IMG/VR virus record: IMGVR_UViG_3300035204_001919
Location: 1-43,839 of that record
Direction: 5' to 3' (one strand)
Length of the DNA stretch: 43,839 nucleotides
Origin: a virus
How positions within the stretch are numbered: the first letter of the stretch is position 1; each line of letters begins with the position of its first letter. The notes beneath the pieces are model-generated. The model searched no databases and was not told where the DNA came from. It worked only from the letters and a program-made list of their open reading frames with translations. This document shows positions 7,250 through 43,839 of this stretch, in pieces. The position numbers were made by a program, and so were the translations under genes.

Positions 7250-7510
7250 GGTTCGAGACGGCATAGCCCCAAATTAGTACGCTGCACCGACACAGTAATC
7301 CAATACTGTTATCGCCGCTTTTTTAATTACGGCATCTATATGTCGCCATATAGTTCGGACTATATCTTCGCTAATAAGCGTTGGGCGCTCGTGGGCGGGT
7401 TATTGTCGGGTCTCACCGCCTAGTCTCTACACCTTCCAGAGTATCAGTACCCCCTCTGGCTTGGCTCGGTATTGTCTCATAGAGAGTTCCACCGAATTCA
7501 CCCAATATGG
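7250..7510 (-). ncRNA. Group I intron (td-like) catalytic core
   Basis: The 371 bases between the flanking genes hold a group I ribozyme on the minus strand. Diagnostic segments in order: GAATTCGGTGGAACTCTCT (near 7482-7500), GAGACAATACCGAGCCAAGC (within 7458-7478), GGTGTAGAGACTA (7421-7433, P7 5' strand) and GAAGATATAGTCCG (7356-7369, P7 3' strand). A P9 hairpin at 7336-7353 has seven base pairs and a GCGA tetraloop. TCGGT/ACCGA and CTCT/GAGA pairings match the layout of the phage T4 td intron. Further small hairpins follow to about 7280. No homing endonuclease gene is present. Exact splice sites are not identified; the ends given are approximate. Confidence 0.85.
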
Positions 7511-7569
7511 CCAAATTTTCTTATATTATATATACATCTAATAAACCTAAAAGTCAACCTTAATATTGA

Positions 7570-9057
7570 CTATAATTCATAACTGTATGCTCCACTAATT
7601 CCTCCTGTAGAAGTCCATTGATCCTCTTCGCACTTATGTACGCACCAGTCTCTAACAGCAATGAAGCTGCCCATACCAGCTGTTCCAGAGGAATAATAAT
7701 AAAGGGGCAACTGTTCCACTTCAACAGGTATTTTAATTTTAATTCCAGAACCCGGTATATAATTTGCACTATCCAGAGAACTAGTAGAAGTGGGATCAAC
7801 GATATTAATTCCCTGACCCATTCCTTGATGATTTCTACATTGATAATATAAAGTGCTTGGTGCATCCATAGGAACCCTAAATACAGTCATCGCGTCAGAA
7901 GTATTCACGCCATCCCCTTCTAAATATCCCTTCATCGCTTGTACTTCACAGAATATACCGCTACCCTTGTCTCCTCCACTTGAATCTGTGCCGATATATA
8001 AGGGGTGTCCACTATTTGATACGTCGGACTGATCGAACCTATACTCTGATCCCCTCTTCATGGTTAGAATTGGCTTATGAACCCCGTCTAGATAAAAAGC
8101 TGTACCGTAATTAGGGCTACCCGTAGTTGCAACCTGATATGTAACAGTTTCATGCTCTATAAATCCTTGGTTACCAGAGATATACTCTGTTCCAGATCTA
8201 TAGACATTTCCTAAAATATCGAACCATTCAGAATGAGTACCGTCCCTGACAGTACTGAGCCTAAAGTCATATGGTAAATATTCCCCACTGAACCCATCGA
8301 TAGAATTGCCACTTTCTTTAGGCCAAGGATCAACGAATCTAAATACATATTCTGTACCAGAAGCATTAAGCACCCCTAGCGCTGCTTCGTCTCCATTTAA
8401 GGCGAATTCGAAAGACGGAGTTTCTCCTGCTCCAGTGGGAGGCAGAGAGACATTTATAACCTTGGGAGAACAACTTACGTCACTCGGGGGAGAGTAGTAT
8501 ACATTGTTTGCCTCATATTTCGTGTCTAACTGTAAGCCTCCAGCTGCAGCAGGTACAGTTCCAACGTTATGCTTGGATCTAACCTGTATTTCAAAATTCT
8601 CAAATACTATAAAAGGATGAGGCTGTTCAGCTACCCCGAAATCGTCATAAGTTATTGTCTTGTGATCTTTTACATGAGTTTTCCAGTAGGTCGCATAATA
8701 AGACTGGTAAGCTGCATTAAACTTTACATCCTGTTCGTACCGTTTCTTTCCAGCGGTATCTGTTGAAACAAAACCAAATGGATAGTTATTCTTTACATCT
8801 TCAAAAAGAGCAAGAGCTTGTGTATCATTGAAGGATTCTTCTCCTCTGCCTCCATAGTAACGATAACCATATTGTCCGTATTTTTCGGTGCGTTCTGATT
8901 CATCTGTAAATCCGATTCTTTCAATAGTTTTTAATTCAACTGGTTTTAGATAAAATCTTGGAGTATCATCTGTTGCAAGATTATGAGAATCTTTATTAAA
9001 ATATAAATGACATACGAACTTAACCGCTCTATTTATTTTGTTTGTTTTAAAGCTCAT
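7570..9057 (-). CDS. Virion protein with plastocyanin-like (cupredoxin) domain
   Basis: 495 residues. The N-terminal ~300 residues are beta-rich and unrecognised. Residues about 325-420 look like a cupredoxin: LTMKRGSEYRFDQSD, then SGHPLYIGT with H351, then YYQCRNHQGMG with C407, H410 and M413. These four are in the positions of a type-1 copper site. Related domains occur in marine phage structural proteins. Translation starts in a TAATG overlap with the preceding gene, behind GGAGGAGG. The TAG lies just before the group I intron, so splicing could alter the C-terminus. Copper binding is inferred. Confidence 0.7.
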   Translation of the reverse strand: MSFKTNKINRAVKFVCHLYFNKDSHNLATDDTPRFYLKPVELKTIERIGFTDESERTEKYGQYGYRYYGGRGEESFNDTQALALFEDVKNNYPFGFVSTDTAGKKRYEQDVKFNAAYQSYYATYWKTHVKDHKTITYDDFGVAEQPHPFIVFENFEIQVRSKHNVGTVPAAAGGLQLDTKYEANNVYYSPPSDVSCSPKVINVSLPPTGAGETPSFEFALNGDEAALGVLNASGTEYVFRFVDPWPKESGNSIDGFSGEYLPYDFRLSTVRDGTHSEWFDILGNVYRSGTEYISGNQGFIEHETVTYQVATTGSPNYGTAFYLDGVHKPILTMKRGSEYRFDQSDVSNSGHPLYIGTDSSGGDKGSGIFCEVQAMKGYLEGDGVNTSDAMTVFRVPMDAPSTLYYQCRNHQGMGQGINIVDPTSTSSLDSANYIPGSGIKIKIPVEVEQLPLYYYSSGTAGMGSFIAVRDWCVHKCEEDQWTSTGGISGAYSYEL

Positions 9058-27842: not shown

Positions 27843-28268
27843 CTATTTAGGTTTCCTCTTCCTTGTTCGCTTTTTTGAGGGCTTACCTTGTTCCTTTTTT
27901 GTGCTTTTGAATCCCGCTTCTTTTTTAAATTGAGCTAATGATTCTTTATTGCTAATATTCGGCGCTTCTCGTTTCTCCAGAGGCGCTAATCCCCCTACTT
28001 CGTCATAATTAACTTGACTCATTTCGCCAAAGGTTTCTACGTTTGGCGTCATTAACTCTATATCCAAACTCTGTTGAGATAAATCATCCTTGGACCAATT
28101 GATATGTTCACCGTCGTCATCATTTTCTAACTCTGTCTCTTTATGAAACTCTGATATGGAGCCTCTTGCTTTTTCTGTTAGAGGTGTTCCGCAATTAGAG
28201 CAAAAGCTAGGCTTTACTGCACCATAAGAAATCGCACCGCCACAAGAAAAACAATACATTTTATTCAT
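27843..28268 (-). CDS. Zinc-ribbon protein
   Basis: 141 residues from ATG 28268. The longer reading frame from 28325 would run through the promoter and is rejected. A double zinc-ribbon lies at the very start (YCFSCGGAI and SFCSNCGTPL), followed by an acidic middle and a highly basic tail (KKRTRKRKPK). It is the first gene of the run to the sigma-like and nuclease genes. A nucleic-acid-binding or transcription role is plausible. The start has the -10/6 nt/ATG pattern and a second ATG three codons on. Confidence 0.65.
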   Translation of the reverse strand: MNKMYCFSCGGAISYGAVKPSFCSNCGTPLTEKARGSISEFHKETELENDDDGEHINWSKDDLSQQSLDIELMTPNVETFGEMSQVNYDEVGGLAPLEKREAPNISNKESLAQFKKEAGFKSTKKEQGKPSKKRTRKRKPK

Positions 28269-28274
28269 GTGTCT

Positions 28275-28304
28275 ATTATAATATAGAAACAGGCATTTAG
28301 CCAA
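28275..28304 (-). promoter_or_regulatory. Sigma70-like promoter, -10 six bases from ATG
   Basis: TTGGCT (28299-28304), 18-base spacer, TATAAT (28275-28280), then AGACAC and the ATG at 28268. It is divergent from the plus-strand gene at 28344. Confidence 0.6.
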
Positions 28305-28325
28305 AAAAATAAAAAGGTTTTTCAT

Positions 28326-28333
28326 GTGTAAAT
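28326..28333 (+). promoter_or_regulatory. GTGTAAAT candidate phage promoter (plus strand)
   Basis: Plus-strand GTGTAAAT, ten bases before the ATG at 28344. TATATTACGC lies between the motif and the ATG. It is the plus arm of a divergent promoter region. Confidence 0.4.
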
Positions 28334-28343
28334 TATATTACGC

Positions 28344-28568
28344 ATGAGACTTTCAAAGAAAATGAAAGATTTGATGAATAAATTAGACCTTATTGGTAAG
28401 AAGTCTTTACCATTATGTAAACATGAGAATACTAAAATATCTAACTCAGCTATAGAAATTAATCAATTAGCACAAGAAATATATAAGGAGCTAGATAGAA
28501 TGGAACATAATTTTAGACATGAAGAACAAGGGGTTAACACAGACGAGCCTATAGTGAGGTTTCTTTAG
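28344..28568 (+). CDS. Small helical hypothetical protein (plus-strand island)
   Basis: 74 residues, Lys-rich at the start and acidic at the end, predicted helical. No motif recognised. It is divergent from the zinc-ribbon gene and 35 bases upstream of a glycosyltransferase-like gene on the same strand. Confidence 0.55.
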   Translation: MRLSKKMKDLMNKLDLIGKKSLPLCKHENTKISNSAIEINQLAQEIYKELDRMEHNFRHEEQGVNTDEPIVRFL

Positions 28569-34145: not shown

Positions 34146-35129
34146 CTAAACAAAAGATTGGAATTCAGTATCATATAAATCCTTATAATGATTAACTGTT
34201 TTAGATAGTCCCTTCTCGAAAGTATGCTTAGGCTTCCATTTAAGTTCTTTTTTAATTTTTGAATTATCTATTGCATATCTAAAGTCGTGACCCAATCGAT
34301 CTTCTACGAATTCTATGCATACTTCAGGATCAACCTTTAGCAACTTACAAATAGCGTGAATAAGATGTATATTACTCTTTTCTGCATTAGCTCCTATGTT
34401 ATAGGTTTCGCCTATAGTCCCCTTATTTAAAATTGTCCATAAAGCAGAGCAATGATCATCTACATAAATCCAATCCCTTATGTTCTGACCTTTGCCGTAA
34501 AGAGGGATTTTCTTTCTTTTCAAAATAGAATTGATAATGACGGGGATGAATTTTTCTGTATGCTGATAAGGCCCATAATTATTAGAACAATTAGAGATAG
34601 TTACTGGAAGTCCGAACGTATGGTAATACGAGCGTACAATATGGTCAGAAGCTGCTTTAGACGCCGCATACGGGTTCCTCGGGTCATATGGAGTACTCTC
34701 TGAGAACTTGCTTGACTTGTCTTCTAGGGACCCAAACACTTCATCTGTGGAAATATGATGAAATCTCTTTATGTTGTATTTTCTTCCAGCTTCTAATAAG
34801 TTGAAGGTACCGACTATATTAGTATCTATAAATTTTCTCGGACCTGTAATAGAATTATCTACATGAGACTCTGCAGCAAAATGCATGACATGGTCAATCC
34901 CATACTTATCGAATACGCCTTCTACATATCTTTGGTCAACTAAATCTACATTTACAAATTTAATCTTATGGTGATCGTCGACGTCATCTTTAATGTTTTC
35001 GTAATTAGCGGCATAAGTAAGACTATCTAAAACGACAATCTTCTTAGCCGAAGGTCTTCTTTTAAAAATTATATGCTTTAAGAAGTTAGACCCAATAAAC
35101 CCACATCCACCTGTTACCAATAAGTTCAT
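34146..35129 (-). CDS. rmlB: dTDP-glucose 4,6-dehydratase (RmlB-like)
   Basis: 327 residues. Extended SDR signatures: TGGCGFIGSNFLKH for NAD binding, STDEVFGSLE with the Thr/Asp/Glu catalytic set, YAASKAASDH with the Tyr-x3-Lys pair, and DWIYVDDHCSAL. It converts dTDP-glucose to dTDP-4-keto-6-deoxyglucose. RmlD-like and RmlA-like genes lie immediately upstream in the operon. GTGTATAAT lies just upstream of the start. Confidence 0.92.
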   Translation of the reverse strand: MNLLVTGGCGFIGSNFLKHIIFKRRPSAKKIVVLDSLTYAANYENIKDDVDDHHKIKFVNVDLVDQRYVEGVFDKYGIDHVMHFAAESHVDNSITGPRKFIDTNIVGTFNLLEAGRKYNIKRFHHISTDEVFGSLEDKSSKFSESTPYDPRNPYAASKAASDHIVRSYYHTFGLPVTISNCSNNYGPYQHTEKFIPVIINSILKRKKIPLYGKGQNIRDWIYVDDHCSALWTILNKGTIGETYNIGANAEKSNIHLIHAICKLLKVDPEVCIEFVEDRLGHDFRYAIDNSKIKKELKWKPKHTFEKGLSKTVNHYKDLYDTEFQSFV

Positions 35130-35140
35130 TTGTACCTATA

Positions 35141-36013
35141 TTATACACTTTTAGTCCAATTTTTGAGAGAATCTATTATGGCTTCTTCGGCCGTCCTAAT
35201 TTTCACTCCTGCGTCTAAAAGCTTTTGATTATCTAGAATGCAATTAGATCTTCTGGCTTTCGCTGCTGTTTCGTAAAAATGATTTTCATCATCAAAGAAT
35301 AAAGGGGAAAAATCCTTAAATTTCTCTTTTATAAGATCAGCGACCTGTTTCGTAGTGACACTACCCGTATTAACCACATTATAAGTGCCGTATGGAGCTT
35401 TAGCGTCGAACACTAGATCTATACAACTCTTAGCAAAGTCTTCTCTATGAGAAATAGAATTTGTTGCATTGAGTAATTTTTCATAATTCATTAGTTTAGA
35501 TAGATAATTCCTAGGGCTATCGTACTTATCAAAAGGAATTCGTAAACGCCAGATATAATAATTACCACCTACTTCTTCGATACATCTCTCTCCTTCGACT
35601 TTGGTTCCGCTATAGTAGCTACAATTTCCGAGGTCGAATGTCAAATTCGGCGCATCTTCTTCAGAAAATCCTCGGCCACCATTTTTTCCGTCATAAATAC
35701 ATCCAGATGATACGTGACCCCAAGGTAAACCTGTGCGTTGACACGCTTTGGCTACGATCGTCGGTAAGGTTACGTTTCCCTTCCATGTTTCTTCCTTGTC
35801 GTTTTCGCATGCATCGACATTGGGTTTGCCTGTGTATCCTGCACAGTTAATCAAAAAATTAGGTTTAGTCTCTTTAATTAATTCGGTAAGAATGTCTAAA
35901 TTATAATAATCTACCTCAGACCTAGATAAAGGAAGTAAACCGACATCCTTATTCCTTAATTCATTAACGAACTGCGCTCCTACATATCCTGTAGAACCTA
36001 AAATAATAACCAT
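35141..36013 (-). CDS. RmlD-like dTDP-4-keto-sugar reductase
   Basis: 290 residues. GSTGYVGAQFVNEL is the NAD(P) motif, YSGTKVEGER the catalytic Tyr-x3-Lys, and NCAGYTGKPNVDACENDKE is typical of RmlD-like reductases. Between RmlA and RmlB it would reduce the 4-keto sugar. Because no RmlC epimerase is present here, the product may be dTDP-6-deoxytalose, dTDP-fucose or rhamnose made with host RmlC. A weak AGAGG site lies upstream. Confidence 0.82.
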   Translation of the reverse strand: MVIILGSTGYVGAQFVNELRNKDVGLLPLSRSEVDYYNLDILTELIKETKPNFLINCAGYTGKPNVDACENDKEETWKGNVTLPTIVAKACQRTGLPWGHVSSGCIYDGKNGGRGFSEEDAPNLTFDLGNCSYYSGTKVEGERCIEEVGGNYYIWRLRIPFDKYDSPRNYLSKLMNYEKLLNATNSISHREDFAKSCIDLVFDAKAPYGTYNVVNTGSVTTKQVADLIKEKFKDFSPLFFDDENHFYETAAKARRSNCILDNQKLLDAGVKIRTAEEAIIDSLKNWTKSV

Positions 36014-36022
36014 AAATATAGT

Positions 36023-36889
36023 TTACCTCTTTTTGGCCAATAAATCTAGCAAATAATTCTTATATTCACTATCAGGGGTATTAGAAACAATTTGAGAAAA
36101 ATCATCTTTAGAAATAAGATTATTCATTAAAGCAGCTTCCTCAGGACATCCTACCTTTATACCTTGTCTGTGCTCAATAGCTTGTATGAACGCCGCAGAG
36201 TCATGCAGCGCCGTTGACGTACCAGCGTCTAACCAAGCACAACCTCTATTAATTTTAACAACTTTTAATTCTTCTTTATCTTTATAAGCACTAATAACAT
36301 CAGTAATCTCTAGTTCGCCACGAGCAGAGGGTTTTAGCGCCTTTGAAATATCTGAGACCTGCTTGTCGAAAAGATAGAACCCCGGAATAGCAAGATCACT
36401 TTTAGGTTCTTTAGGCTTTTCTTCTAAAGAAATAACTCTATTTCTACTATCAAGCTCCACTACCCCATATCTTGTAGGGTCACTAACTTTATATCCAAAT
36501 ATGGTACCACCTTTTTCGAACTGTTTAATTGCTCTAGTAAAAACTTTACAACCATAAAAAATATTATCGCCGAGTATGAGCGCTACATTAGAATTCCTAA
36601 TGAAATTTCTGGCTATAATGAAGGCTTCTGAGATACCTCGAGGCTTTGATTGTATTTTATATGTAATTTTTGCACCAAAACGGGTACCTTTTCCTAAAAG
36701 TTGGCGAAATTCAGCAATATAGTTCTCAGAAGTAATAATACAAATCTCATTAATGCCATTTTCAAGCAAAGTAGTAAGAGGATAATATATCATTGGCTTA
36801 TCATAAACAGGCAAAAGCTGTTTATTTAGATATGTAGAACAAGGATACAGCCTTGAACCCATACCTCCTGCTAAAATTATACCTTTCAT
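36023..36889 (-). CDS. rmlA: Glucose-1-phosphate thymidylyltransferase (RmlA-like)
   Basis: 288 residues. KGIILAGGMGSRLYPCSTYL and NKQLLPVYDKPMIYYPL are the nucleotide-binding signature; ALILGDNIFYG and EEKPKEPKSDLAIPGFYLFD are the sugar and metal motifs. It makes dTDP-glucose from glucose-1-phosphate and dTTP, the first step of the module. Normal length. The ATG lies one base after the stop of the preceding glycosyltransferase gene. Confidence 0.94.
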   Translation of the reverse strand: MKGIILAGGMGSRLYPCSTYLNKQLLPVYDKPMIYYPLTTLLENGINEICIITSENYIAEFRQLLGKGTRFGAKITYKIQSKPRGISEAFIIARNFIRNSNVALILGDNIFYGCKVFTRAIKQFEKGGTIFGYKVSDPTRYGVVELDSRNRVISLEEKPKEPKSDLAIPGFYLFDKQVSDISKALKPSARGELEITDVISAYKDKEELKVVKINRGCAWLDAGTSTALHDSAAFIQAIEHRQGIKVGCPEEAALMNNLISKDDFSQIVSNTPDSEYKNYLLDLLAKKR

Positions 36890-38334: not shown

Positions 38335-38703
38335 TTAATCTCTGCAACGAATGTCATTACCATAGCTATCTTCATAATAGCCTTGCACGTTCCAATACGT
38401 ATCATAGTTCTTCACTTTGAACGTTTCGTGAGTGATTGATAAGTCTTTATGACTAGGAGCTTTGTTGCTTGCGGTGTAGGCTCGCAAGTCCTCTAGGTAG
38501 TCTTGCACCTCATCATCTGATGCGTATAGTACATCATCAAATGATACTAGGTCGCCATAGCCTTGGCCGTCATAGGCCTCTAGCCATACGCCTTGGCAGG
38601 ATACGATGTTAACCAAGCGGCAAGGTTGCCCAGTGTTGGCGTTGGTGTAGATAGCTCCCAATAGGAGGTTAGTTGCTTTAGTGTTTTCTTTCATAATCTT
38701 CAT
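38335..38703 (-). CDS. Acidic hypothetical early protein
   Basis: 122 residues from ATG 38703 (a second ATG three codons on). The longer frame from 38745 translates the promoter repeat and is rejected. Rich in Asp, Tyr and Gly (EAYDGQGYGDLVSFDDVLYA; YWNVQGYYEDSYGNDI). No motif recognised. The acid-rich surface is common in phage anti-host or DNA-mimic proteins but is not proof. No Shine-Dalgarno; the -10 is six bases upstream. Confidence 0.6.
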   Translation of the reverse strand: MKIMKENTKATNLLLGAIYTNANTGQPCRLVNIVSCQGVWLEAYDGQGYGDLVSFDDVLYASDDEVQDYLEDLRAYTASNKAPSHKDLSITHETFKVKNYDTYWNVQGYYEDSYGNDIRCRD

Positions 38704-38709
38704 GCGTAC

Positions 38710-38746
38710 ATTATAACATGGGGGGTGAGACATCCGTAGTCCCACC
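38710..38746 (-). promoter_or_regulatory. Inverted-repeat/extended -10 promoter (type B)
   Basis: A 23-bp inverted repeat (38724-38746; arms GGTGGGAC and GTCTCACC) followed by CCCCATGT and TATAAT (38710-38715) within TGTTATAAT, then GTACGC and ATG. There is no good -35, as expected if a protein bound to the repeat activates or blocks the site. Confidence 0.7.
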
Positions 38747-38967
38747 TACCATCTTGTGTAAAAATTGTTTGCGTCAGGATGTACATGCCCCCAATCGCTT
38801 TTAGCTACATAGGCTTGCTTGTAGTAGGATGATGACCATCCAATGCTCCACACAATCTCTCTTAAGCCACTCTTGTTGGCCTCATCCATAGCTGTGCCAA
38901 GGCTCCAGTAATACTTCTGGTTTAGCATGTACTTGGCTCCTAGTAGTTTCATCATCAGTCTTTTCAT
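38746..38967 (-). CDS. Small hypothetical protein
   Basis: 73 residues with aromatic-rich sequence (EIVWSIGWSSSYYKQAYVAK). Basic start. Its TAG lies right at the edge of the next promoter's inverted repeat. Unlike its neighbours it has a leader of about 40 bases behind a consensus promoter. No motif recognised. Confidence 0.6.
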   Translation of the reverse strand: MKRLMMKLLGAKYMLNQKYYWSLGTAMDEANKSGLREIVWSIGWSSSYYKQAYVAKSDWGHVHPDANNFYTRW

Positions 38968-39014
38968 AATCTTTTTAGTTTAGTTCTTTTGTTTCTCTCA
39001 CTCTCAATACGTAT

Positions 39015-39103
39015 AATATAGCACATTGATGTCAAAAAGTCAAGCGATAATATGAAAAAGTTATTCACAATGAGAATGAATCTCAATAGCGCGGGCCCCC
39101 CGC
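39015..39103 (-). promoter_or_regulatory. DnaA-box promoter module (type A)
   Basis: In transcription order: GC hairpin (39089-39103), palindrome GAGAATGAATCTC (39072-39084), DnaA box TTATTCACA (39061-39069), -35 TTGACT (39038-39043), 17-base spacer, -10 TATATT (39015-39020). It drives the 73-residue gene. Upstream, 39104-39208 has only GC-rich inverted repeats and no gene I can support. Confidence 0.8.
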
Positions 39104-39208
39104 AGGATGCATGCCAACACCCCCTAGGGGGTAGGGGGTGGGGGTATAGGCTAGGGGCTAATACACACGATGATGATGAACGATTGAAACATGTGCCTCA
39201 CCCCTAAC

Positions 39209-39505
39209 CTAAAATACTTTAGCCACTAGCACACCAATAGCTATGCCTATGCTAATGAATATACCAATAGCTACATATGATATGGTAGCACTATGTACCT
39301 CATTCACTACTACGTTAGGCTGTGCCTCATGTGCATCAGGTTTTAAGTCAGTCTTTTGCATTTGCTCTATCCATGATTGTGGTAAATCACCTTCATCAGC
39401 CCATACCCATGAGGATGCTTGTTCACTATACCACCAATAGCCCTCAAATCCATGTTGACTGCCATTGTGTGTGGGTGGATTGTCTATGTCTGTTACGTTC
39501 ATCAT
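39209..39505 (-). CDS. Small C-terminally anchored membrane protein
   Basis: 98 residues from ATG 39505. Acidic, Trp-rich soluble part (GFEGYWWYSEQASSWVWADE) and a C-terminal membrane span (SYVAIGIFISIGIAIGVLVA). Tail-anchored topology. No family recognised. The ATGATGAAC start follows the -10 by seven bases. Confidence 0.6.
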   Translation of the reverse strand: MMNVTDIDNPPTHNGSQHGFEGYWWYSEQASSWVWADEGDLPQSWIEQMQKTDLKPDAHEAQPNVVVNEVHSATISYVAIGIFISIGIAIGVLVAKVF

Positions 39506-39512
39506 CTTAATC

Positions 39513-39541
39513 AGTATACTATATAAACTTATATGTGTCAA
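39513..39541 (-). promoter_or_regulatory. Sigma70 promoter without DnaA box
   Basis: TTGACA (39536-39541), 17 bases, TATACT (39513-39518), seven bases, ATG. A near-consensus host-type promoter. GC-rich inverted repeats lie just upstream (39557-39585). Confidence 0.75.
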
Positions 39542-39579
39542 TAAAAATCGTAGGTGTGGGGGGGTATACCCTAGGGGTA

Positions 39580-39738
39580 CTACCCTAACCATTCAATAGT
39601 ACCAAATACAATACCCAATGATGCTAATAGTATAATACCAAATACTATCATATAGCCAATGAATTCAAACCATAGCTTAATAGGGTTAGTGTCTTTGTTG
39701 TTAGCGATATGTTGTTTAGTCCATTCTTCGTTCATCAT
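39580..39738 (-). CDS. 52-residue membrane protein
   Basis: From ATG 39738: a short charged start (MMNEEWTKQHIANNKD) and one long hydrophobic helix (WFEFIGYMIVFGIILLASLG). One membrane span. Predicted leaderless: the -10 ends six bases before ATGATG. Not recognised. Confidence 0.6.
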   Translation of the reverse strand: MMNEEWTKQHIANNKDTNPIKLWFEFIGYMIVFGIILLASLGIVFGTIEWLG

Positions 39739-39744
39739 GTTAAT

Positions 39745-39853
39745 ACTATACCACAGGATAAGCCATGTGTCAACACCTTTTTTAATAAAAGTTATCCACA
39801 ATGAGACTGTGTCTCAATAAGGCGGGGGGGCCCGCCAGATGAGACTGGGTCTC
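39745..39853 (-). promoter_or_regulatory. DnaA-box promoter module (type A)
   Basis: Two GAGACTnnGTCTC palindromes (39841-39853 and 39803-39815) flank a GGCGGG/CCCGCC hairpin (39821-39836). Then come DnaA box TTATCCACA (39792-39800, perfect consensus), TTGACA (39768-39773), 17 bases and TATAGT (39745-39750). Confidence 0.8.
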
Positions 39854-39935
39854 AGTAGGGGTGGGGTAGGGTAGGGGGTGGGGGTACCCCCCTAGGCAAG
39901 TTCATTTGTGAGTTAACTTCAAGTGTGATTTTCAT
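39852..39935 (-). CDS. Possible 27-residue peptide after the DUF1232 gene
   Basis: ATG at 39935 directly follows the TAA of the preceding gene and has GGAGG five bases upstream. It reads MKITLEVNSQMNLPRGVPPP and ends after a Pro-rich tail within the hairpin region. The ribosome-binding site is strong, but the tail simply translates GC-rich repeat DNA, so it may not be functional. Confidence 0.35.
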   Translation of the reverse strand: MKITLEVNSQMNLPRGVPPPPTLPHPY

Positions 39936-40169
39936 TTAGTCCTCCAATAGTATGGGTGGTTCTCTGTTAAGAATGGGCGGGAGTTCTTCCGTTGGTTCGG
40001 GCGACACATCACCCTTGCGTTTTTTCCAGAGTAAACCAACGGACGTTGCAAATAGCCCCGTAACAAAATCATCAACAAGACCAAAAGGCCCAAGAAGTGC
40101 TTCAGGGATGAAATCAATCGGGCATAAAATATAAATGCCACATAATACAATAGTAATAAGTTGCCACAT
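39936..40169 (-). CDS. DUF1232 (YkvA-like) membrane protein
   Basis: 77 residues. IYILCPIDFIPEALLGPFGLVDDFVTG is the DUF1232 signature (YxxxPxDxIPE...GxxDD). An N-terminal hydrophobic helix and a second weak span are followed by a Pro/Glu-rich cytoplasmic tail. The family's role in bacteria is not known. It is unusual in phages. Part of the transcript from the promoter at 40773-40801. Confidence 0.8.
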   Translation of the reverse strand: MWQLITIVLCGIYILCPIDFIPEALLGPFGLVDDFVTGLFATSVGLLWKKRKGDVSPEPTEELPPILNREPPILLED

Positions 40170-40210
40170 ATGTTTTACTGGACAATGATGTCAATGGCGT
40201 TAATGAGTGG

Positions 40211-40465
40211 TCACCACGTCCATTGTGTGGTGAGCATTTGGTGAGCAACTACAAAGCCGAGCGCGAGAGCCGCACCGCAGCAAGCCGCAATTGCTAATTC
40301 AAGATACCACTTGTGACGCGCATCTTTTTCGTTGAGTTCATAGCGTAGTTTACGCTGCGCTGATTCTGCTAGCTCGCGCTCTTTGCGAGTTAAGCGTGTC
40401 TTGTTAAAAACACCAGCGGCGAGTTTGTTGCTGGGGTCGAGGGTTATGTTTGTTTGTTTCATCAT
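40211..40465 (-). CDS. Small basic membrane protein
   Basis: 84 residues: a soluble Lys/Arg/Glu helix (TRLTRKERELAESAQRKLRY) followed by one membrane span (LELAIAACCGAALALGFVVA) and a short tail. No motif. It lies between a 91-residue gene and the DUF1232 gene in one operon. Confidence 0.6.
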   Translation of the reverse strand: MMKQTNITLDPSNKLAAGVFNKTRLTRKERELAESAQRKLRYELNEKDARHKWYLELAIAACCGAALALGFVVAHQMLTTQWTW

Positions 40466-40490
40466 AATATAAAAAAGGTTTAGTTAATGT

Positions 40491-40766
40491 CTAGAGGGTG
40501 GACTTTACAACACTGTTAGCGATAGGGCCGAGGCTTTGCTCGGTCTTGGCGAACTGTGTCCGCTCTTGAATCTCACCCACAAAGGTGACATCCAAAAAAG
40601 CGTTTTTACCGTTGGAGAGTTTAACGTCTAAAGTGCGACCGTCTGCCATGATGGCTTCGACGATTCCTGTTTGGCCGAATAACTGGCTTTTGGCGAATGT
40701 TACGCGCACCTCGTTGTTGAGTAGAAGTTGCGCCTCTTGTTTGATTGTCATTTTTTCGTTCATCAT
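40491..40766 (-). CDS. Small beta-rich hypothetical protein
   Basis: 91 residues from ATG 40766. VRVTFAKSQLFGQTGIVEAI and GRTLDVKLSNGKNAFLDVTF suggest an SH3/KOW-like small beta barrel, as found in nucleic-acid or ribosome-associated proteins. The match is by pattern only. First gene of a four-gene unit. Predicted leaderless start. Confidence 0.55.
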   Translation of the reverse strand: MMNEKMTIKQEAQLLLNNEVRVTFAKSQLFGQTGIVEAIMADGRTLDVKLSNGKNAFLDVTFVGEIQERTQFAKTEQSLGPIANSVVKSTL

Positions 40767-40772
40767 GTTAAT

Positions 40773-40827
40773 ACTATACCTCAATTATGCTAAAAAGTCA
40801 AGCGGTTTTTTCAAAAAGTTATTCACA
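40773..40827 (-). promoter_or_regulatory. DnaA-box promoter module (type A) overlapping a gene end
   Basis: DnaA box TTATTCACA (40819-40827), TTGACT (40796-40801), 17 bases, TATAGT (40773-40778), six bases, ATG. The box overlaps the last codons and TAA of the 55-residue gene, so coding and regulatory sequence are shared. No hairpin precedes it. Confidence 0.8.
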
Positions 40828-40986
40828 ATCACAGGCAAATTCGGTGCTGATCACGTTGGTGAATATGCGGTTGGCTATACGCATAGCGTGGTCTGTGTCA
40901 CGAGCCTTGACAAATTCGGCGCGTGTCTTGCCAGTCTCCCAGCAAGTTGCAATTGTCACTTTGAAGATACGTTCTTTAATCATCAT
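40819..40986 (-). CDS. 55-residue hypothetical protein
   Basis: From ATG 40986: MMIKERIFKVTIATCWETGK and AMRIANRIFTNVISTEFACD. Alpha/beta, small, soluble. The longer frame from 41166 translates hairpins and the promoter and is rejected. Its final codons form the DnaA box of the next promoter. Confidence 0.6.
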   Translation of the reverse strand: MMIKERIFKVTIATCWETGKTRAEFVKARDTDHAMRIANRIFTNVISTEFACDCE

Positions 40987-40992
40987 GCGTAT

Positions 40993-41029
40993 AGTATAGC
41001 ACAGAGGGTGGGACATCCGCAGTCCCACC
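40993..41029 (-). promoter_or_regulatory. Inverted-repeat/extended -10 promoter (type B)
   Basis: Inverted repeat 41007-41029 (perfect eight-base arms GGTGGGAC / GTCCCACC, seven-base loop), then TGCTATACT with -10 at 40993-40998, six bases, ATGATG. The most symmetrical copy. Confidence 0.75.
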
Positions 41030-41054
41030 AAAAAGAAAATCGAAAAAAGTTTTT

Positions 41055-41087
41055 GAGACTGAGTCGCAATAGCGCGGGGGGCCCCGC
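41055..41087 (-). terminator. GC hairpin plus palindrome plus T-run
   Basis: GCGGGG/CCCCGC hairpin (41074-41087), palindrome GAGACTGAGTCGC (41055-41067), then AAAAACTTTTTT. Same parts as the type A modules but with the DnaA box lost. It ends the unit containing 41111-41678. Confidence 0.6.
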
Positions 41088-41110
41088 AGGGGGGGTGTGT
41101 CAAGTTTTTT

Positions 41111-41428
41111 TTAGTAACCGGGGTAGCCGTCAAAATGACTGCAGCCTTGCCAGTCTTCGTCTTCATCTTCCCAGACGTAACCCGCTGGAGCCATCACCTC
41201 GTTAAGCTCGCTACCGCTAGCCTTGCTGATGATGTAAGGCTTTAACTCTTTTAAGTCAACACTACCCCATTCGTTTTCAAAGCCCATGACAAAACCAAAT
41301 GCAATGCCATCTTTATCAGGTTCTTCCAAATAATACTCCCACATGTTACGGAGAATGATATGCTGTGACACCGCAAAGGGTTCGCTAGTGTCTTCGTTGT
41401 TTGCGTTAATGATGTTTCTTGTCTTCAT
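41111..41428 (-). CDS. Acidic hypothetical protein
   Basis: 105 residues from ATG 41428. Acidic overall and especially at the C-terminus (GYVWEDEDEDWQGCSHFDGY). A middle segment (DGIAFGFVMGFENEWGSVDL) is beta-like. No motif. It starts four bases after the preceding stop. The high negative charge would suit an inhibitor of a nucleic-acid-binding host enzyme, but that is speculation. Confidence 0.6.
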   Translation of the reverse strand: MKTRNIINANNEDTSEPFAVSQHIILRNMWEYYLEEPDKDGIAFGFVMGFENEWGSVDLKELKPYIISKASGSELNEVMAPAGYVWEDEDEDWQGCSHFDGYPGY

Positions 41429-41432
41429 AAAA

Positions 41433-41678
41433 TTATCGCCCCATGCTCTGAAGATTCTTTTCAATCTTCTTAATCTTGTCCGTAGTGTGATTCCAAATTG
41501 CTTTGATATCATTTGTGCGGTAGATCGCAGCACTACCAACACCACCGAAATGTTCGCCGTGAATGCGAACCTCAATATCGTTTACTTCAATCTGTGTCAC
41601 AACGTCAAAGCGTGTGATGTTCTCAGCAATAAATTCTTGCTCTTCTTTCGTTAGTCTTATGTTTTTCATATTCTTCAT
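41433..41678 (-). CDS. Small hypothetical protein
   Basis: 81 residues from ATG 41678; the frame upstream translates the promoter repeat. Charged start (MKNMKNIRLTKEEQEFIAEN), a beta segment (VEVNDIEVRIHGEHFGG-like pattern) and a Lys-rich C-terminus. Not recognised. Predicted leaderless start with a second ATG three codons later. Confidence 0.6.
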   Translation of the reverse strand: MKNMKNIRLTKEEQEFIAENITRFDVVTQIEVNDIEVRIHGEHFGGVGSAAIYRTNDIKAIWNHTTDKIKKIEKNLQSMGR

Positions 41679-41684
41679 GCGTCT

Positions 41685-41721
41685 AGTATACCATACGAGG
41701 TGGGACATCTGTAGTCCTACC
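41685..41721 (-). promoter_or_regulatory. Inverted-repeat/extended -10 promoter (type B)
   Basis: Inverted repeat 41699-41721 containing the TAG of the preceding gene, then TGGTATACT with -10 at 41685-41690, six bases, ATG. One arm carries a single change (GGTAGGAC), which is exactly what creates the upstream stop codon. Confidence 0.7.
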
Positions 41722-41917
41722 ATTCGTTTTCTTCAAATTCTTGTGCCATTGTGGCCGACCATACAAGGTCATCACGACTAGAGAAAATCCTAAGCCAATC
41801 ACCGCCATACTCTGCGGCTTGCTCTAGGGCTGAGTTGTAGCCCTCGCGGGTGTGAGGGTAAGTCTTGAGGAGTTGGCTCCCGTTCCAGAGTGTGTAAGTT
41901 GGTTTTTTCTCGTTCAT
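41717..41917 (-). CDS. Small hypothetical protein
   Basis: 66 residues from ATG 41917. YTLWNGSQLLKTYPHTREGY then EQAAEYGGDWLRIFSSRDDL; the regularly spaced aromatics suggest a small alpha/beta fold. Acidic end. Its stop codon lies inside the next promoter's inverted repeat. Not recognised. Confidence 0.6.
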   Translation of the reverse strand: MNEKKPTYTLWNGSQLLKTYPHTREGYNSALEQAAEYGGDWLRIFSSRDDLVWSATMAQEFEENEW

Positions 41918-41926
41918 CTTGTATAT

Positions 41927-42032
41927 AAGATAACACATTAATGTCAAAAAGTCAAGCGGTTTTTTCAAAAAGTTATTCACAATGAGACTGAGTCGCAATA
42001 GGGCGGGGCCCGCCCAGATGAGACCGAGTCTC
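41927..42032 (-). promoter_or_regulatory. DnaA-box promoter module (type A), fullest copy
   Basis: Order: palindrome GAGACCGAGTCTC (42020-42032), hairpin GGGCGGGGCCCGCCC (42001-42015), palindrome GAGACTGAGTCGC (41984-41996), DnaA box TTATTCACA (41973-41981), TTGACT (41950-41955), 17 bases, TATCTT (41927-41932), nine bases, ATG. Confidence 0.8.
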
Positions 42033-42092
42033 AATAGGCTTTTTTCTGTTGCCACGCTTAACGCGCCGAGTCTGAGTCAGTAGCGGAGTAGG

Positions 42093-42293
42093 TTACTCGC
42101 TCACGCCAAAGATGCCATCTTGGCAGCATTGGCATAGAGCAGAGATGCCGTATTCCTTGCGCGAAAGCTCGTCGCGGAATTCTAAATCGAATTCCCCGCA
42201 CTTGACGCATTGACCTGCGGCTTTTGCCATGCTAGGGCTACGACCGAACAGGCGCATCGCCATGTCTTCTTTCGCGTTAGTTAACGTATCCAT
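42093..42293 (-). CDS. Small zinc-binding protein
   Basis: 66 residues with CVKCGEFDLEF and ALCQCCQDGIF, giving two CxxC pairs spaced for one zinc. The N-terminal helix contains Met/Arg/Lys. Small zinc proteins of this kind often bind nucleic acid or protein. It follows the hairpin at 42310-42333, so it may rely on read-through or an unseen promoter. Confidence 0.65.
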   Translation of the reverse strand: MDTLTNAKEDMAMRLFGRSPSMAKAAGQCVKCGEFDLEFRDELSRKEYGISALCQCCQDGIFGVSE

Positions 42294-42309
42294 GATATGT
42301 GTTTTAACG

Positions 42310-42333
42310 GTGTGACCTCCGAGGTCGTCACAC
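42310..42333 (-). terminator. Hairpin between the 69- and 66-residue genes
   Basis: GTGTGA ... CCT CGG AGG ... TCACAC forms a two-part stem just after the TAA of the upstream gene. No T-run, so it may instead be an operator or RNA-stability element. Confidence 0.45.
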
Positions 42334-42339
42334 TAACCC

Positions 42340-42549
42340 TTACTTGCAAGTTCCATCCTCAAACCATTTGTTTAAATCTTTGCAATGCTGCGCCCACTCT
42401 TTAGCTGTTAACAAAGGCCCATGCTCTGCCTCGACAGCACCCCAACGGTCACGCTCCTCTTGCCCACGCTCCCACTCCTCATGCTCAAGCTGGGCCTCGA
42501 TGTCTGGGGTGATTGCTTCTTCGATTGTTGGCATCATGTCGTTCATCAT
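42340..42549 (-). CDS. Acidic helical small protein
   Basis: 69 residues from ATG 42549 (ATGATGAAC). Glu/Trp-rich helix (AQLEHEEWERGQEERDRWGA) and an acidic, Lys-containing end. Strong negative net charge. No motif. Preceded by a near-consensus promoter and predicted to be leaderless. Confidence 0.6.
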   Translation of the reverse strand: MMNDMMPTIEEAITPDIEAQLEHEEWERGQEERDRWGAVEAEHGPLLTAKEWAQHCKDLNKWFEDGTCK

Positions 42550-42555
42550 GGGAAT

Positions 42556-42640
42556 AATATACTCCATTTTTGGCATTAAGTCAACCCCAAAAGTGAAAAA
42601 AGTTATTCACAACCTCGCGGGGGCCGTCAGGCCCCCCGCG
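42556..42640 (-). promoter_or_regulatory. DnaA-box promoter module (type A) with terminator hairpin
   Basis: Hairpin CGCGGGGG.../...CCCCCGCG (42616-42640), DnaA box TTATTCACA (42603-42611), T-run, TTGACT (42579-42584), 17 bases, TATATT (42556-42561), six bases, ATGATG. The GAGACT palindrome is absent here. Confidence 0.8.
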
Positions 42641-42717
42641 CGACCTAGGCACAAAAATAGACGCGCCGAGGTGAAAGAAACAAAGCCCCCGACGCGTCTT
42701 TTGTTTGCGCGTAAAAC

Positions 42718-42939
42718 TTAAAGTTTAGGCGTAAGGTCGCGCACCATACTCTCTTGAGTATAAACGTCTACCTCTTTGTTGCTTGCTTTTCGCAAGTTCT
42801 GAACACGCGCATCTGATACGCGGTCGGTATGTCGTTTAGTTAGCACACGCGCACTGTTAACCGCTCCCAATACGCGTGTGACTTGTCCTTCGCTCGTGTC
42901 AAAATAGAGCGAACCATTCCTAATGTTTTTTGCTTTCAT
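42718..42939 (-). CDS. Small basic hypothetical protein
   Basis: 73 residues, beta-rich N-terminus (NGSLYFDTSEGQVTRVLGAV) and an Arg/Lys-rich helical middle. Possibly nucleic-acid-binding by charge. AAGGA upstream overlaps the stop region of the lipoprotein gene, so translation is coupled. Not recognised. Confidence 0.55.
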   Translation of the reverse strand: MKAKNIRNGSLYFDTSEGQVTRVLGAVNSARVLTKRHTDRVSDARVQNLRKASNKEVDVYTQESMVRDLTPKL

Positions 42940-42943
42940 AAGA

Positions 42944-43354
42944 TTATGGCTTCCTTGTGCCTAAAACTGTTCTTTCGTACCACATCCATTCGATAGTGTT
43001 TCGTTGCGGAACTTTGCGAATTGTACCAGTGTGGTCAACGTAAAAATCTGGATCACCAAACGAACGCATTTGTGACGGCATAACATTGTGGCGCGTTCTC
43101 ATCCAATCGTTATACTCTTGCGCCGACATGAATCCATTAACAACTTGCTGCCGCATTGTATAGTTTAACGCTTCTTCTTCGCTTAAAATTCTACCGTTAA
43201 CTTTAAGAGGGCCGGGATTTTTCCACAGAGCAAAATCATTTTCAAATTGTTCTGCTGTACGCCAACCATCTTTATCTGATAACATCTCTGTGATGCAACC
43301 CGTGGAGAATACTCCAATAAAGAAGATTAGCAATGTTTCTTTCACTTTAATCAT
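42944..43354 (-). CDS. Phage-encoded lipoprotein
   Basis: 136 residues from ATG 43354, which has AGGA six bases upstream. MIKVKETLLIFFIGVFSTGC is a short basic start, a hydrophobic core and a lipobox ending at C20. The mature part is hydrophilic, with Trp/Met/Arg-rich segments. Surface lipoproteins of phages can block superinfection or act in lysis. No family recognised. Confidence 0.7.
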   Translation of the reverse strand: MIKVKETLLIFFIGVFSTGCITEMLSDKDGWRTAEQFENDFALWKNPGPLKVNGRILSEEEALNYTMRQQVVNGFMSAQEYNDWMRTRHNVMPSQMRSFGDPDFYVDHTGTIRKVPQRNTIEWMWYERTVLGTRKP

Positions 43355-43377
43355 AATAAGTCCTAACCCTACTGGAG

Positions 43378-43635
43378 TCAACCTTTTTTTACCAATCCCT
43401 CCCAATAGCCAAGATTGTCATCTTCTTCATCTCTAAACAATGGCTCGCCATGTTGATTGTAAAGTTCTTTAAAATACGCCCAATGCCCAGCGTGTGTGCC
43501 TTCGTTCGCAGCGTGTTGTAATTGGCTGAATGTAATTGTTGCGTGAGCATAAGAGGGACGCTCCCGCCTATTCTCTTGCTCGATTGCTTGTGACATTCTT
43601 TTTCTTTGCGCTTCGGTTGGTTTGTATTCGTTCAT
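43378..43635 (-). CDS. Hypothetical helical protein
   Basis: 85 residues with an Arg/Glu/Gln-rich start (EAQRKRMSQAIEQENRRERP), a His-rich middle (HAANEGTHAGHWAYFKELY) and an acidic end. Soluble. It follows the 54-residue gene by three bases. Not recognised. Confidence 0.6.
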   Translation of the reverse strand: MNEYKPTEAQRKRMSQAIEQENRRERPSYAHATITFSQLQHAANEGTHAGHWAYFKELYNQHGEPLFRDEEDDNLGYWEGLVKKG

Positions 43636-43638
43636 AAT

Positions 43639-43803
43639 TCAATCCATGTCTTGCCAACTATCGCCATCGTCATAAGAAATTAAATCCAAGTCTGGAATTG
43701 TAATTGCCTCTTGACCAGCATAGTCAAAGCTATGAATGTCGTATTCTTTACCGTCATATAAGGCGGTGCCATTGTCTGTTAGTTCTATATCGTTCATAAT
43801 CAT
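43639..43803 (-). CDS. Very acidic 54-residue protein
   Basis: From ATG 43803 (a second ATG two codons on), MIMNDIELTDNGTALYDGKE to ...DGDSWQDMD. About a quarter of residues are Asp/Glu, with one Lys and no Arg. Such proteins in early phage regions often mimic DNA or bind host enzymes; no homology is recognised. It sits directly behind a type B promoter with the six-base -10 to ATG distance. Confidence 0.65.
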   Translation of the reverse strand: MIMNDIELTDNGTALYDGKEYDIHSFDYAGQEAITIPDLDLISYDDGDSWQDMD

Positions 43804-43809
43804 GTGTCT

Positions 43810-43837
43810 ATAGTATCATAGGGGGTGAGACATCCGC
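43810..43837 (-). promoter_or_regulatory. Inverted-repeat/extended -10 promoter (type B), cut by the window edge
   Basis: TGATACTAT with -10 at 43810-43815, six bases before ATG, and the near arm and loop of the inverted repeat (GGATGTCTCACC on the minus strand). The far arm lies beyond the window. Confidence 0.65.
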
Positions 43838-43839
43838 TG

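Follow-up and report, generated by a model that had tools for sequence, protein, structure and literature searches.

In a lineage of uncultured phages, the first genes of most small-gene, probably early, transcription units carry promoters of the sigma-70 type whose predicted +1 coincides with the A of the ATG, or lies within ~3 nt of it, and we consider leaderless initiation very probably the best explanation. The −10 element ends exactly six bases before the start codon, this spacing is conserved in relatives, Shine-Dalgarno (SD) sequences are absent, and two promoter classes are found before orthologous genes. On the leaderless mRNAs predicted from this arrangement, 70S ribosomes would load directly, without SD. 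Promoter and start codon would form one cassette, in either of two versions: class A, with −35 and −10 elements and often a DnaA-box-like site upstream, and class B, in which a 23-bp inverted repeat would stand in for the −35 above an extended −10. Each cassette, together with the first few codons behind it, may have been exchanged between genes by recombination, and a protein may bind the inverted repeat or the DnaA-box-like site. We call the small-gene region probably early from its position and gene size only.

What kind of phage carries these promoters? The window—the whole stretch of DNA analyzed, 43,839 bases of IMG/VR record IMGVR_UViG_3300035204_001919—has 39% GC and a phage-type TerL, and no tRNA genes were found in it. 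Among uncultured viruses, this TerL has many relatives at 64–79% identity. Its matches in isolate phages were remote only (~20–24% identity), the organisms named include no Thermus phage, and searching isolate phages with TerL, two other conserved proteins, and one early protein gave no close relative. GTDB genomes searched with the class B repeat pattern gave 0 matches at the pattern used, indicating no host, and a TerL profile matched a single contig there, in a Flavobacteriales MAG (67% identity). TTGACA/TATAAT promoters are unlike those of Bacteroidetes; because of this, and because misbinning is possible, we rate the contig match weak and did not adopt Flavobacteriales as the host.

How are the promoters of the window built? 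All lie on the minus strand, at the first gene of most units, and the arrangement is absent from the later genes of each unit. Class B cassettes occupy 38703..38746, 40986..41029, 41678..41721, and, cut by the window end, 43803..43839. The first has an inverted repeat at 38746–38724 (GGTGGGACTACGGATGTCTCACC) and an extended −10 (TGT-TATAAT, 38715–38710), and reads TATAAT-GTACGC-ATG up to an ATG at 38703 that opens a 122-aa ORF with orthologs in 6 contigs. At 40986, a perfect inverted repeat (41029–41007, GGTGGGACTGCGGATGTCCCACC) is followed by TGC-TATACT, the spacer ATACGC, and ATGATG; at 41678, the repeat (41721–41699) is followed by TGG-TATACT, the spacer AGACGC, and ATGAAGAATATG; and at 43803, the right half of the repeat is followed by TGA-TACTAT, the spacer AGACAC, and ATGATTATGAAC. 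TACTAT is the weakest hexamer of the set, a 4/6 match to TATAAT, but the extended −10 is present, and orthologs of this gene in contigs G028 (TACTAT) and G030 (TATAGT) have the same distance and complete class B cassettes.

Class A cassettes with six-base spacers lie at 39738..39800 (box TGTGGATAA, TTGACA from 39773, TATAGT ending at 39745, spacer ATTAAC, then ATGATGAAC), at 40766..40827 (box TGTGAATAA, TTGACT from 40801, TATAGT ending at 40773, spacer ATTAAC, then ATGATGAAC), and at 42549..42612 (box TGTGAATAA, TTGACT from 42584, TATATT ending at 42556, spacer ATTCCC, then ATGATGAACGACATGATG). A class A-type promoter at 39505..39541 (TTGACA-17-TATACT) has the 7-nt spacer GATTAAG before ATGATGAAC. 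The class A cassette at 41917..41981 (TTGACT from 41955, TATCTT ending at 41927) is 9 nt from its ATG (ATATACAAG-ATGAACGAG), for a predicted leader of 3 nt. The exception to the leaderless pattern is a class A promoter at 38967..39043 (TTGACT from 39043, TATATT ending at 39015, ATG at 38967), with a leader of ~41 nt whose start, TATTGAGAGTGAGAGA, recurs in other contigs. Outside the early region, a zinc-ribbon-like gene at 28268..28280 reads TATAAT-AGACAC-ATGAATAAAATG; its homologs share the start residue, at −10 distances of 5–10 nt. An earlier note on this DNA had placed the −10 six bases before the ATG at 38703, 39738, 40766, 40986, 41678, 42549, 43803, and 28268 and seven bases before it at 39505 (TATACT-GATTAAG-ATG), and direct reading bears out every coordinate and distance. 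Its picture of a whole leaderless early region was overstated: seven promoters of the region sit at 6 nt and 39505 at 7, but 41917 sits at 9 nt and 38967 has its long leader, so the region is not uniformly leaderless.

Is the spacing kept across the lineage? Counting as promoter-like any site in contigs of the lineage with an extended −10 or a TTGAC −35, we found an ATG at exactly 6 nt at 71 unique sites vs. ~5 for each other distance; an ORF of 40 codons or more begins at 66 of them. A wider set of 15 contigs held 91 unique promoters with the ATG at 6 nt, 78 of them opening ORFs of at least 40 codons. Four unique 6-nt sites come from G013, a more distant relative with 33% GC; several relatives show no 6-nt peak, and their contigs may not include the region. 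The same spacing in relatives was the check that the earlier note had proposed for its leaderless reading, and we find it across two unrelated promoter classes and before many unrelated proteins; a leaderless or near-leaderless mRNA whose +1 is the A of the ATG thus has good support.

Class B promoters have no −35; their 23-bp inverted repeat, GGTRGGAC-N7-GTCCCACC, lies ~8 nt before the extended −10. Searching with the repeat found near four window genes returned 11 loci on 9 contigs, and at all 11 a −10 comes next, then six bases and the ATG of one of several different proteins. These 9 contigs are of the same phage lineage (TerL 69–79% identity, where TerL is present). When 36 class B matches were defined by the inverted repeat, with no reference to an ATG, the ATG stood at +1 in 28 and an A stood at +1 in 34, including five promoters where AGT (AGTTAA) replaces ATG at +1 and a short leader follows. 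Position +1 is therefore the likely transcription start, and a transcript beginning there would in consequence lack any leader. A held-out IMG/VR scan with a looser repeat pattern yielded 42 new matches, 26 of them with a −10; the ATG was at exactly 6 nt in 18 of these 26, and most of the others had short leaders. We considered the repeat as a terminator and rejected this, because no T-run follows it on the gene strand and it nearly always lies ~8 nt from the −10; a regulator site is the role that we prefer for it.

Class A promoters have the form TTGAC, 17 nt, TATANT. Upstream of the −35, 31 of 66 carry a DnaA-box-like sequence, against ~1 expected, mostly at fixed positions: TGTGNATAA at −26/−27 or −17, about one helical turn apart, and TTATNMACA at −13. 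That DnaA itself binds there is only a guess. The class A pattern in IMG/VR also matches phages that have no −10 or adjoining ATG, and so discriminates less well than the class B repeat.

Where, then, does translation begin? Of the 70 early starts at 6 nt, 14 are preceded by an SD match of at least 4 nt, a share below the 31% of random positions; among late genes the count is 20 of 31. The earlier note had seen no fitting SD, which holds for the mRNA: the GAGGT at 40766 precedes the −10 and hence falls outside a transcript starting at +1. A less likely alternative is that the +1 AUG recruits ribosomes while the protein begins one to three codons later, at another AUG. All nine window genes do have an in-frame ATG within codons 2–4, as the earlier note had said of nearly all of them, and some proteins may start there; in some class A genes the first ATG is gone (ATA-ATG, AAG-ATG), with the start at +4. 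Family-wide, however, such an ATG occurs in just 29 of 78 ORFs, and 32 of the 78 have no further in-frame ATG in codons 2–16, which leaves the +1 ATG as their sole nearby ATG start. Moreover, the first ATG is in frame, and the second has no SD. Ribosome loading by 5′-terminal upstream AUGs is known in Escherichia coli (PMC4965119), but in those mRNAs the main gene has its own SD, behind a leader, and the phage genes here have neither: only 0–9 nt separate the first and second ATGs of the window genes, and no SD or SD-bearing leader was found in that interval.

It is improbable, in our estimation, that the transcripts have short, A/U-rich, SD-less leaders to which an ATG at +1 is incidental. 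Leaders are plain in some cassettes: AGTTAAAGATTAAAGATT-ATG is an example, SD-less leaders of 6–19 nt occur (AGTTAAAGATT...ATG), and 38967 has its own of ~41 nt; an ATG at +1 is therefore not obligatory. Against incidental placement, all 28 ATGs found at +1 among the 36 repeat-defined promoters open ORFs of at least 37 codons, where ~2 ATGs would be expected if the A at +1 alone were fixed, and many genes have no alternative ATG nearby. A shade less probable still is a copy-and-paste history, in which recent duplication of cassettes, without selection on the distance, made the spacing constant. Cassettes are recognizably related within class A and within class B, and since those of one class are related by descent, part of the fixed spacing must be inherited. 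The distance is, however, common to two unrelated classes and to the distant G013 with its different GC content, and 51 different spacer sequences occur among 79 genes at 6 nt, so the length of the spacer has been kept and its sequence has not.

How often would the spacing arise by chance? Counting TATAAT-like hexamers with at least a 5/6 match, in a binomial test at the window's own hexamer frequency, we found one ending exactly 6 nt upstream of 6 of 17 predicted early starts in the window (~0.15 expected, P = 6e-9) and of 1 of 32 late starts. Over annotated starts in the first 50 kb, phage T4 gave 0 of 82 at distance 6, and phiYS40 gave 5 of 59, with 11 at distances 4–9; the test thus picks up a known case and gives nothing on the control. 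Looser hexamers weaken the window peak (22 vs. a mean of 11.7), which might point to a chance effect of AT-rich sequence or to a biased choice of hexamers, but the window probability, the absence of any match to the reversed pattern in 12 contigs, and the held-out replication refute that idea.

Are the cassettes tied to particular genes? Grouped by homology, the first genes fall into 33 families of two or more members. Both promoter classes occur in 10 of the 33, and 25 of the 38 members of these mixed families are at 6 nt. In the FDLDGTLI family, for example, G022, G023, and G006 have class B and G025, G001, and G031 have class A, all at 6 nt. The 91-aa ORF at 40766 has a class A promoter in the window and class B in its orthologs in G022, G023, and G030, and orthologs of the gene at 41917 have class B at 6 nt in three contigs. 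N-terminal residues tend to track the promoter class and not the protein, with MMN[ED] behind class A and MKIK, MMIK, or MIIK behind class B, and the exchanged unit accordingly seems to extend through the start codon into the next few codons. Promoter and start codon seem to move between genes together, as a single unit. On a bolder formulation our judgment is evenly balanced: that the start codon is itself a promoter component, and that cassettes of regulator site, promoter, ATG, and first codons are exchanged between orthologous genes. If so, recombination inside the coding start would plug genes into different regulation, leaderless initiation would free the cassette from any ribosome-binding site, and the inverted repeat would act as one switch and the DnaA-box-like site, at its constant helical phase, as another.

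How does this arrangement compare with known systems? Lambda cI, transcribed from PRM, is a phage gene with its AUG at +1 of a sigma-70 promoter; it is a single gene with a single promoter, whereas here we see a repeated cassette. The earlier note overstated the case in treating cI as the single phage example: most middle and late transcripts of the Thermus phage phiYS40 are reported to be leaderless (PMC3594737). Annotated starts of phiYS40 show the same peak at 6 nt, and a mostly leaderless temporal class of transcripts would be a second likeness; most promoters of the window region fit such a class, with the temporal class taken from position. phiYS40 differs in that its leaderless genes are middle and late (PMC3594737), while here the predicted ones belong to the small-gene, probably early, region and late genes tend to have SD; the available part of its description mentions no repeat-defined, swappable cassettes. 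In Actinobacteria and Deinococcus-Thermus, the standard signature of leaderless genes is a hexamer, TANNNT, starting ~12 nt before the start codon, with no SD (PMC3160421, PMC12340547). The phage genes likewise have a hexamer ~12 nt upstream of the start, an mRNA without SD, and an arrangement conserved in relatives; those TA-led genes are cellular, however, whereas ours belong to a phage lineage, and upstream of them lies either a strong −35 or an inverted repeat. Transcriptome sequencing of Lactococcus cremoris found a bimodal distribution of leaders, under 5 nt or clearly longer with few between (PMC10986495), which the predicted leaders in the phage family resemble; those data describe a host, and ours are phage promoters. 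Genes without leaders are already known, then, and so is a phage, phiYS40, with a largely leaderless transcriptome. A limited literature search found no description of a phage lineage whose small-gene promoters would be leaderless and sit in cassettes marked by a repeat, with the start codon as part of the cassette and with exchange of cassettes between orthologs.

Leaderless initiation is usually viewed as a minor or ancient route. With this route predicted at many separate small-gene promoters, the phage lineage offers natural promoter–start pairs for studying how leaderless mRNAs compete early in infection, and the regulation of a gene would change here while no ribosome-binding site is involved. 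Such genes may be misannotated when starts are called automatically or promoters are searched for.

What accompanies the class A promoters (a TTGAC -35, 17 nt and a TATANT -10) besides their core elements? Upstream of the -35, a DnaA-box-like sequence (TTATNCACA type) was found in 31 of the 66 class A promoters overall, at mostly fixed positions spaced about one helical turn. The window carries such sequences upstream of the -35 at 39738-39800, 40766-40827 and 42549-42612.

Two further sites are candidates for leaderless starts. A partly symmetric TATAAT/TATATT region at 28320-28344 lies between 28325 (-) and 28344 (+), with an ATG 4-6 nt from each side—an arrangement that may represent a bidirectional leaderless promoter. 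For the minus-strand gene, homologs favor 28268, the ATG of the zinc-ribbon-like gene, as the actual start. At 43351-43381 (-), TTGACT-17-TATTAT-GATTAAA-GTG is followed by a lipoprotein-like N-terminus, and this GTG start is possibly leaderless as well.

By eye, GC-rich palindromes with TGAGAC/GTCTCA arms recur between the small genes (39060-39160, 39795-39890, 41040-41095 and 41980-42040) and are possibly insulators or terminators separating units. Adjoining the small-gene region, a position kept in relatives, are rml-type sugar-nucleotide genes (34146-36889, minus strand; NTP transferase, dehydratase and reductase). The record starts inside a 30-bp tandem repeat (1-130), which probably caused the assembly to stop.

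Structured RNAs were also found. A Group I intron (7336-7553, minus strand; Rfam RF00028, full-length model, 72.2 bits) lies just downstream of a baseplate/tail-fibre-connector-like ORF (7570-9057). In two relatives the phage carries its own tmRNA gene, each specifying a long tag peptide (loci L134:10910-11327 and L119:3996-4400), and relative G031 has a manA RNA motif (L129:5249-5427, minus strand).

Among late genes of the window, 8 of 35 have GTGTA[AT] within 45 nt upstream (e.g., 15487, 22309, 32348, 34128 and 35148, all minus strand), where ~0.5 would be expected; it is a possible late-promoter motif. G031 encodes a sigma-70-like protein with regions 2 and 4 (L124:9730-10353, minus strand), which may be a phage sigma factor.
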